Notes under the pieces: generated by a model
Told to the model about the DNA's origin: nothing
Seen by the model: the letters and a program-made list of their open reading frames with translations, nothing else
Database searches by the model: none
NCBI GenBank assembly: GCA_930633495.1
Contig: CAKNFJ010000001.1
Coordinates: forward strand, 2,415,001 to 2,479,000
DNA length: 64,000 nt
Origin: Hyphomicrobiales bacterium
Lineage (GTDB): Bacteria; Pseudomonadota; Alphaproteobacteria; Rhizobiales; Beijerinckiaceae
Direction: 5' to 3'
Made by a program: the position numbers and the translations under genes
Part shown: piece by piece, positions 62,012-64,000 of the stretch
How positions within the stretch are numbered: position 1 is the first letter of the stretch
How the letters are laid out: each line of letters starts with the position of its first letter

Positions 62012-62638
62012 TCAGCGGGCGAGGTAGCCGAGATCGCGCAAGGCGGCGAGAACGGCGAGCAAGGGCATGCCCAGGATGGTGAAGTGGTTGCCTTCGACGA
62101 TCTCGAAGAGCTGCACGCCCAGCCCTTCGAGCTGGTAGCCGCCAACGCTGGACAAGACCGCCGGGCCGACAAGCTCGACATAGGTGCCGATGAACTCGAT
62201 ATCGAGCGGGCGCATGGTCATCCGCGCGGTCTCCCGCCCTTCGGCGATCGGCGCACCATCCTTCGCCAGGACGAAGGCGGCGTGGAGCTCATGCGTCCTG
62301 CCGGCAAGCGCGGCAATTTGCTCGGCGGCGGCGAAGCTGTCGGTCGGCTTGTGGAAGGAGACTCCGTCGCAAGTCAGCGTCTGGTCCGCGGCAAGGACGA
62401 GGCGTCCGGGTCGCTCATGCGAGACCGCAAGCGCCTTGGCGCAAGCCAGCGCGGCGGCGATCTGGTCGGCCGGAACCCCCTGCTCGACAAGTGGGTGCTC
62501 GACCGCGCGCTCGTCGATCTCGGGTTTCAGGACCTCGACGGGAATGCCTGCGGCGACGAGCATGTCCCGCCGGGCTTCGCTGCCGGATGCCAGGATCAGG
62601 GGCTGCTCCCGCAGCCAGAGGCTGGTCGTCGGGGTCAT
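62012..62638 (-). CDS. maf: Maf-family nucleotide pyrophosphatase
   Basis: This 208-residue protein is a Maf house-cleaning nucleotide pyrophosphatase. The N-terminal [19 protein letters not shown] and the active-site [14 protein letters not shown] block are intact. The start ATG overlaps the DUF299 stop (ATGA). Confidence 0.93.
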
Positions 62639-63498
62639 GTCGCAATGAACTTCATGCGATGGTCGCGGAGCAGATCGAGAATCGAGGCGGCCGTTTCCTC
62701 GATCGAGCGGCGCGTCACGTCGATGACCGGCCAGCCCCTGCGGGCACAAAGCCGGCGCGACTGCGTGACCTCGTCGGCCACCGCGGCCGGATCGACATAG
62801 GCCGTCTCCTCATCCGCCCGCAGGGAGAGAAGCCGGTTCTGCCGGATCTGGACGATCCGGTCGGGGCTGGCGATCAGCCCGACGATCAGCGGGCGCTTGG
62901 CATTCTCCAGTTCCGACGGCAGGGGGATATTCGGAACCAGCGGGATATTGGCGGTCTTGATGCCGCGATTGGCGAGATAGATGCTCGTCGGCGTCTTCGA
63001 GGTGCGGCTGATGCCGACGAGAATCACATCGGCGCCATCGAGATCGCCGCCCGTCTGCCCGTCGTCATGAAGCAGCGTGTAGTTCATCGCGTCGATGCGG
63101 CGGAAATATTCGGTGTTGAGCACATGCTGCGCGCCCGGCTTCGGTGCCGAGGCCTGGCCGAGATAGGACTGGAACAGCGACAGCACCGGCTGCAGCACGG
63201 AGAGGCAGGGACAGCCGAGCTCGCGGCAGAAGCTCTCCAGCTTCTCCTGCCATTCCGGCTCGACCAGCGTGTAGAGCACCACACCCGGCGAAGATTCGAT
63301 CTCGGCCAGGACGCGGGCGAGCTGCGCCTCGGAACGCACCAGCGGGTAGACATGCTCGATCGCGGAGACGCTCTCATACTGCGCCGCGGCCGCGCGGCTG
63401 ACGGCGATCAGCGTTTCGCCGGTCGCATCCGAAACCAGATGCAGATGGAAATAGTTGCGGACCACGGCATCCCCCGGCCTGAAGCGCTTCGTCATCAT
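62635..63498 (-). CDS. DUF299-family kinase/pyrophosphorylase (PEP synthase or PPDK regulatory protein type)
   Basis: This 287-residue protein has the DUF299 N-terminal block ([22 protein letters not shown]) and a P-loop-like [18 protein letters not shown] motif. The family phosphorylates and dephosphorylates PEP synthase or pyruvate phosphate dikinase. It heads the leftward run from the oriC region and is divergent from hemE. Confidence 0.93.
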
Positions 63499-63684
63499 CT
63501 AGCGCGCTTTCGCCCGGACCGGAATCACGCATTCGCGCGCCGGGCCGGGTTCCGCCTCGGGCCGGCTTGTCCACCGGCATGGGGAGCAATGTGGACAACC
63601 CGGGTTTCGCCGGGGCGCCGGGCGCGCGTCTGTATAACCCGCCCCGGCCATCAACAGCCCCCATACTGTGCATGGTTAAGGAAG

Positions 63685-63700
63685 TGTTTCACGTGAATCA
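63685..63700. other. parS-like centromere site
   Basis: TGTTTCACGTGAATCA matches the bacterial parS consensus TGTTTCACGTGAAACA at 15 of 16 positions, with only position 14 different. The ParB-contacting core TTTCACGTGAA is intact. parS sites cluster at origins, and this lies in the oriC-type gap. Confidence 0.8.
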
Positions 63701-63737
63701 TTTCGCCGTCCCGGAAGGGTCGACGGATTCCGATCCG

Positions 63738-63752
63738 TTAACAAAGCCTTAA
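63738..63752. promoter_or_regulatory. CtrA-binding site (exact consensus)
   Basis: TTAA-CAAAGCC-TTAA is the exact full CtrA motif TTAA-N7-TTAA. CtrA silences Caulobacter Cori by binding such sites. Here it lies between the parS-like site and the hemE start. Confidence 0.75.
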
Positions 63753-63856
63753 CGACCTGGCTGCCGATCGTGGGCCCGCGACCTGCTGTCCCACCGGCTG
63801 TGGAACGGTTGTGGACAGAATTGTGGCGGGCTATCTCCCCCGTCCAAGAGTCAAAG

Positions 63857-63883
63857 AAAGAGATTCTTTCATACAATCTCTTT
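63857..63883. repeat. AT-rich inverted repeat before hemE
   Basis: AAAGAGATT and AATCTCTTT are perfect 9-bp arms around CTTTCATAC. It lies 16 bp upstream of hemE in the AT-rich part of the putative origin. It may be a promoter-proximal operator or a DNA-unwinding feature. Confidence 0.6.
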
Positions 63884-63899
63884 TATGAGAGGACACGGG

Positions 63900-64000
63900 A
63901 TGAGCGGGCGAGCCCCGGAAACGACCCGCACCGAGCCGCTCTTTCTGCGCGCGCTTGCTGGCGAAACGCTGAAGGTTCCTCCGGTCTGGCTGATGCGTCA
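63900..64000 (+). CDS. hemE: Uroporphyrinogen decarboxylase, N-terminal part
   Basis: The first 33 codons of a gene running off the window are seen. They read MSGRAPETTRTEPLFLRALAG followed by ETLKVPPVWLMR, the usual start of HemE, which makes coproporphyrinogen III in heme synthesis. AGGA lies 7 nt before the ATG. Confidence 0.85.
   Translation, partial: MSGRAPETTRTEPLFLRALAGETLKVPPVWLMR

Follow-up and report, generated by a model that had tools for sequence, protein, structure and literature searches.

How the replication and segregation of a newly copied origin are coordinated is a question on which this locus may bear. The locus lies in the window (the whole stretch of 64,000 nucleotides analysed here, C1:2415001-2479000) of a 5.94-Mb genome assembled in three contigs, with 5.14 Mb in contig C1; Sinorhizobium meliloti and Brucella belong to the same order. 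The best relatives of its PpsR with named records were mostly Bosea, with a top identity of 95% in the protein comparison. The initial annotation had proposed that the gap between hemE and a DUF299 gene, the same neighbours as at Caulobacter Cori, was the chromosomal replication origin. Both flanking genes were confirmed by scores above the curated-model cut-offs, the Cori border genes were thus found here as well, and the gap between them was 401 bp long with 39% AT.

62635..63498, minus strand: ppsR (DUF299/COG1806), left border of the predicted origin; NF003742, 343 bits against a 225-bit cut-off
63499..63899, no strand: ppsR-hemE gap, almost certainly the chromosomal origin of replication, judged by the GC-skew minimum, the neighbours and the Bosea-group footprint
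63900..64000, plus strand: start of hemE, which continues past the window end, right border; TIGR01464, 393.5 bits against a 303-bit cut-off

Past the window the genes followed in the order hemE-rho-mnmE-mnmG-rsmG-parA-parB (locus L103), and a check for parAB and rsmG-mnmG downstream of hemE found both. Profile and motif searches of the whole genome placed its best ParB match, a protein resembling the solved ParB 6t1f (E 3e-67), and both of its parS sites near this gap. ParB_N matched once more, less strongly (30.8 bits), at G000:C1:3806726-3806935 (L090), away from the origin. We also collected 80 related ppsR loci, which were not chosen for parS and reached at most 10 kb on either side of ppsR; a divergent hemE adjoined ppsR in 77 of them. 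Three fetched loci (L023, L075 and L085) contained ppsR without a hemE match, a contig end and a rearrangement not being distinguished. At L014 and L015 the HemE was 58% identical to that of the window, compared with 87% for PpsR, which hints at hemE replacement at the origin, and at L009 and L010 the gap measured ~850 bp instead of the usual ~400, with the extra ~450 bp at the ppsR side and the core sites kept.

Chromosome-scale GC skew was sampled in 20-kb stretches of C1, one about every 100 kb, and in 175 contiguous kb. Most sampled stretches of C1 that lie left of the gap had negative skew and most of those right of it positive skew, with exceptions at 1, 1400001, 2300001, 2415001 and 2431001 (positive) and at 5122541 (small negative). 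The running sum reached its minimum of -0.370 after the stretch 2463001-2479000, with a near tie of -0.367 at 2400001; the position of the cumulative minimum, named beforehand as a possible refutation, thus falls here. Four lines converge here: the skew turn, the ppsR-hemE bracket, the parAB genes nearby and a footprint common to the Bosea group. The gap is almost certainly the chromosomal origin of the hemE-linked alphaproteobacterial type, as the initial annotation had supposed, and as such it is a further case of a known kind. The true origin might lie elsewhere, for example at dnaA, since the best DnaA match was found 236 kb from the gap (C1:2242495) and the skew of the 175 contiguous kb bottomed out 1.7 kb to the left of the gap (window 61802); the trough was shallow, with its 2000 lowest positions lying within window 52534-67219. 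We consider an origin elsewhere extremely improbable, as the best DnaA match sits well away from the turn in skew and the other markers converge on the ppsR-hemE gap. Two more DnaA C-terminal-domain matches occurred in shorter frames, at G000:C2:671437-671634 (L005, 294 aa) and C1:1038603-1038788 (L006, 187 aa); C2, the 759-kb contig that bears the L005 match, had a sampled GC content of 58-64%, below that of most of C1.

The sites within the gap were scored against 500 shuffles. The DnaA consensus used was that of E. coli, and an IHF consensus and the Caulobacter G-box were searched for as well.

63522..63526, no strand: GANTC site, motif match
63567..63575, plus strand: weak DnaA-box-like sequence TTGTCCACC, not kept in the Bosea-group alignment
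63590..63598, minus strand: DnaA-box-like sequence TTGTCCACA (TGTGGACAA on the plus strand), 95 bp upstream of the parS site
63685..63700, plus strand: parS variant TGTTTCACGTGAATCA (A14 to T) inside the predicted origin, one mismatch to TGTTTCACGTGAAACA (15/16 bases)
63695..63699, no strand: GANTC (GAATC) that the altered parS arm creates, motif match inside the parS site
63726..63730, no strand: GANTC site, motif match
63738..63752, no strand: CtrA-type box TTAACAAAGCCTTAA, exact TTAA-N7-TTAA
63798..63831, minus strand: tandem DnaA-box-like array, TGTGG at 63799, 63810 and 63822, about one helical turn apart
63848..63852, no strand: GANTC site, motif match
63849..63898, no strand: AT-rich stretch that may serve as unwinding element and as leader of hemE, 64% AT against 39% in the gap, with a conserved CCAAGAGT...AAGA core
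63862..63866, no strand: GANTC site, motif match

Every kind of site listed in the initial annotation was recovered: DnaA-box-like sites, a parS-like site one mismatch from the consensus, an exact CtrA site, five GANTC sites and an AT-rich tail. The DnaA-box-like sites were weak by the E. coli consensus, yet their cores were enriched. No strict E. coli TTWTNCACA occurred in the gap, and TTGTCCACA, a single mismatch from the E. coli consensus TTATCCACA, was equalled in 18/500 shuffles; in contrast to these weak matches, the three TCCACA cores and three TGTCCAC sequences exceeded all 500 shuffles. A DnaA-box cluster, made of weak-consensus boxes with enriched and conserved cores, thus lies beside an AT-rich stretch. 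An exact CtrA box was present in only 1/500 shuffles and in none of the other 63,498 bases of the window, and the five GANTC sites compared with a shuffle mean of 1.6, a number of five being reached by 8/500 shuffles. The single IHF match (one mismatch), which overlapped the CtrA box, was not above chance, as 58/500 shuffles held as many, and Caulobacter-type G-boxes (TGATCCACA, at most one mismatch) were not found in the gap.

With its match to TGTTTCACGTGAAACA, its rarity in the genome and its place near parAB, the site at 63685..63700 has the marks of a chromosomal parS. The 5.94-Mb genome contained two parS sites at up to two mismatches, both within ~9 kb of parB, and the second, at C1:2485500 in the mnmG-rsmG region, was perfect. 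The one deviating base is a particular one. When parS is numbered 1-16, A14 to T (its mirror image being T3 to A) is the single change that gives GANTC in that arm, turning GAAAC into GAATC, a target of the CcrM methyltransferase. The initial annotation had missed that this mismatch is conserved, that it creates a CcrM target and that the form recurs across the order.

Conservation was assessed in an alignment of 16 Bosea-group gaps, made up of the window together with 15 named records, of which 12 bear the title Bosea and three the title Rhizobiales or Beijerinckiaceae bacterium. Only 81 of the 349 ungapped columns were invariant, and the longest invariant run was an 18-mer, TGTTTCACGTGAATCATT, that contains the parS variant; none of 10000 column shuffles reached this length. 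The same 18-mer was present in 19 of 19 further same-genus gaps, but these had been fetched around the GAATC-parS 16-mer, whose presence was thus preselected, and the informative point is that all 19 sites fell within the ppsR-hemE gap. Three of the 19 were identical to named gaps and one other pair was 96% alike; across all 35 gaps, pairs were identical at a median of 80% of aligned bases. The DnaA-like box TGKGGAHAA, with Y in place of H in 15 of 16 cases, began exactly 95 bp before the parS run in 16/16 Bosea-group gaps, and in the 19 further gaps the spacing was 95 bp in 17, 94 in one and 96 in one, which amounts to 33/35 overall or 30/32 after counting three identical pairs once. The CtrA box, located 53, 54 or 63 bp after the parS run across the 16 gaps, was exact in 16/16 and in 17/19 of the further gaps, with one mismatch in the remaining two (33/35 exact). 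A TGTGGA pair 11 bp apart, beginning 114-125 bp downstream of the parS run, was also found in 16/16. The gap of a divergent genus member, G040 (HemE 55% and PpsR 71% identical), carried neither the parS variant nor the CtrA box. In a different group, Microvirga, nine of nine gaps (L025, L026, L028, L030-L033, L036 and L067) had two exact CtrA boxes with starts 59 bp apart.

The variant was not restricted to this gap or this genus. Sixty of 61 genus genomes had at least one parS site within one mismatch, G025 having none, and among the matches listed the GAATC form occurred in 35/36 genus genomes (of the 61), the exception being G040. At the family level TGTTTCACGTGAATC was found in 35/149 genomes and at the order level GAATC-parS in 134/297, and the reversed control patterns gave no match in either scan. 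Beyond the order, only GAAAC was seen among the 14 genomes of the class listed; the pattern of the phylum scan mixes A14 and T14. The RAMA domain, which we take to be the C-terminal domain of CcrM, was detected in 288/297 order genomes including this one (PF18755, E 9.5e-18), so that GANTC sites coexist here with a candidate CcrM-type enzyme, scored by its RAMA domain. GAATC-parS was absent from 163/297 genomes though the RAMA domain is nearly universal, and this near universality left no power to correlate GAATC-parS with CcrM inside the order.

Is it GANTC itself that is kept? The pattern TGTTTCACGTGABTC matched 19 times in 15 of the 297 order genomes, each time as GAGTC, with two matches for the reversed control, and neither GACTC nor GATTC was found, so that N was only A or G. 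The pattern TGTTTCACGTGANSC, which yields GANSC and excludes GANTC, matched once in each of 21 genomes (16 GAAGC, three GAACC, one GACGC and one GATCC) against 11 matches for its reversed control, and TGTTTCACGTGABAC (GABAC) gave one site in one genome. Against a chance expectation of ~2.4 sites per 15-mer, which assumes equal base frequencies, GAATC, GAGTC and GAAGC were above chance and the other forms were not. The GAAGC form, which lacks GANTC, recurred in families f29 (three genomes) and f51 (five genomes).

The 80 loci showed how the arms vary. After GTTTCACGTG, the arm read AAAC in 62 cases, AATC in 49, GAAC in eight, AGTC in five and AAGC and TGAC in one each; five others (ATCG twice, CCGG, TGGG and CTCG) look like chance, and GANTC in both arms of one parS was not seen in the loci checked. 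All 54 T14 arms kept A12 and C15 and varied at position 13 alone (5/54), whereas position 12 was changed in 9/71 A14 arms and in 0/54 T14 arms (p 0.01, Fisher, a value that is too generous because sites were treated as independent although they share ancestry). G at position 13 accompanied T14 in 5/54 and A14 in 1/71 arms (TGAC, L020), with p 0.08 by the same generous test; this contrast was not significant in the 80 loci and thus rests on the order scans, in which G13 occurred with T14 at 19 sites and with A14 at one. The intact arm started with T1 in 34/35 non-Bosea T14 sites compared with 61/90 canonical arms, and this stricter intact arm suggests that T14 costs ParB affinity. The two forms also differed in location: 61/62 canonical sites were on the hemE/parAB side, whereas the 54 T14 sites were divided between that side (24), the gap (17, of which 15 in the Bosea group) and the ppsR side (13). 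With the Bosea group left out, 44/45 canonical and 23/35 GANTC-parS sites were on the parAB side, and the flanks of parS sites outside Bosea showed no conservation. The idea that the T14 arm serves as a DnaA half-box (TGATTCACG) was weakened, as position 16 was free (C in 14/35 non-Bosea T14 sites) and many T14 sites were kilobases from the gap; a similar TGATTCACG in six Microvirga gaps was not within a CACGTG palindrome.

These distributions bear on what T14 means. It could be that T14 is merely tolerated, or preferred, by the ParB of this order and that GANTC is a by-product without regulatory role, to which we give an appreciable chance clearly short of even. The excess of GAAGC (16 sites in 16 genomes against ~2.4 expected) fits such a view: ParB seems tolerant of some change at position 14, which on this account is not read only as GANTC. 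So do the many RAMA-domain genomes without GAATC-parS, the restriction of N to A or G, and the G13 contrast that fails significance in the 80 loci with the TGAC arm included. Tolerance is harder to reconcile with the frequency of T at position 14 (134 genomes, compared with 16 sites for G and three for C), with the near confinement of G13 to T14 sites across the order, with the affinity cost suggested by the stricter intact arm and with the separate locations of T14 and canonical sites. We thus prefer the reading that A14 to T provides a CcrM GANTC target within the ParB footprint and is probably kept by selection.

Two further readings question whether the site matters as a parS at all. The gap could be an ordinary Caulobacter-type origin with the variant as an unimportant remnant, as the border genes, the skew and the CtrA box agree with the account of Cori in the accessible part of PMC1914354, but a remnant would hardly stay invariant over 16 gaps in which just 81/349 ungapped columns are so, nor at a fixed spacing from a DnaA-like box, and we regard this as improbable. 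The site's position between two divergent genes would also suit a CACGTG operator through which some other regulator controls hemE or ppsR, with no role for ParB. That reading is more improbable still, given that 15/16 bases match parS, that the genome has just one other site of this kind and the two are close to parB, and that other genera carry the motif around the origin up to kilobases from hemE and ppsR with unconserved flanks. Against these readings, a ParB loading site is very likely part of the origin itself, and the overall best explanation, which we hold with moderate confidence, is a hemE-type origin with a built-in candidate ParB site carrying a methylation target.

From this anatomy a working scheme can be proposed. 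DnaA would bind the upstream box and the tandem array beside the AT-rich tail and open the DNA there, CtrA could silence the origin via its conserved box, and ParB would load at the parS variant inside the gap, a site that pairs a canonical arm with one altered from A14 to T. The parS variant would be fully methylated before firing, half methylated after fork passage and fully methylated again late in the cell cycle; CcrM methylation within the ParB footprint would then alter ParB loading behind the fork, its state changing the ease of loading at the freshly copied origin, and the canonical parS beside parAB would act as a constant, methylation-blind loading site. That parS methylation ties replication, methylation and segregation at one site is a possibility we hold at somewhat less than even confidence. 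A broader proposal is more tentative: Hyphomicrobiales may have two kinds of centromere, a constant parS by parAB and a methylation-gated parS with a CcrM target in one arm around the origin, in Bosea inside it with constant spacing to a DnaA box, and hemimethylation made by the fork would turn ParB loading on or off at the new origins as an epigenetic segregation timer. If this is true, DNA methylation would be one more factor in ParB loading. Should ParB and CcrM share a site whose spacing from a DnaA-like box is constant, a single base change would suffice to test a direct link. The rule TGTTTCACGTGANTC (N so far A or G) allows such sites to be sought in other bacteria of the order.

To our knowledge, neither parS nor ParB is involved in the control of E. 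coli oriC by SeqA and Dam. That system resembles the present proposal in that hemimethylation of the new origin is a timing signal (PMC2865523, in its accessible part). In Caulobacter, GANTC sites near the origin stay hemimethylated over an appreciable portion of the cell cycle (PMC11514494, partial text), which makes the timing for a methylation switch plausible. GANTC methylation has been measured at the Caulobacter parS locus too, but there it served as an unaffected locus, and the available portion of the source does not state whether the GANTC lies within parS (PMC5172544). GANTC sites near both origin and parS are shared with repABC replicons, where GANTC-rich stretches occur near parS (PMC9040568, partial text) and one motif in Agrobacterium has been proposed to affect partitioning; in those secondary replicons the sites are near a RepB-type parS, whereas here GANTC is inside a chromosomal parS (PMC11514494 and PMC9040568, as far as their available text goes). 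The chromosomal parS consensus of Agrobacterium is reported to match that of Bacillus subtilis, and the accessible part of PMC9239152 does not mention a GANTC form. In the literature searched, which took in few subscription papers and not the 2007 parS survey, we found no statement of a CcrM site within a chromosomal parS, no match to four 14-mers of the GAATC and GAGTC parS forms, and no methylome or ChIP paper treating GANTC-parS sites.

A ParB-type site near an origin also links segregation to replication in the rctA/parS crosstalk of Vibrio cholerae chromosome II, which differs in being a secondary chromosome governed by RctB, in contrast to a primary chromosome that presumably depends on DnaA (PMC6399470 and PMC3688505, partial texts). 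Hyphomonas neptunium shares a hemE-linked origin, parAB ~7 kb from hemE and a canonical parS that is bound by ParB in vitro; its two perfect parS sites are upstream of parAB, and the part of PMC6650430 available mentions none within the origin, whereas here one is in the gap. The origins of S. meliloti and Brucella are reported, in the accessible text of PMC4433202 and PMC2877005, not to be bound by CtrA, in contrast to the exact CtrA box in 33/35 gaps of the present group. The closest counterpart is Cori of Caulobacter crescentus, placed between hemE and COG1806 with DnaA, CtrA and IHF sites (PMC1914354, in part), which shares with this locus the border genes, DnaA-like sites, a CtrA box, an AT-rich part and a parS near the origin. 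Cori, as described in the available portions of PMC1914354 and PMC6399470, has five CtrA sites and a parS ~8 kb away, whereas the origin proposed here has one exact CtrA box and carries its parS variant inside the gap.
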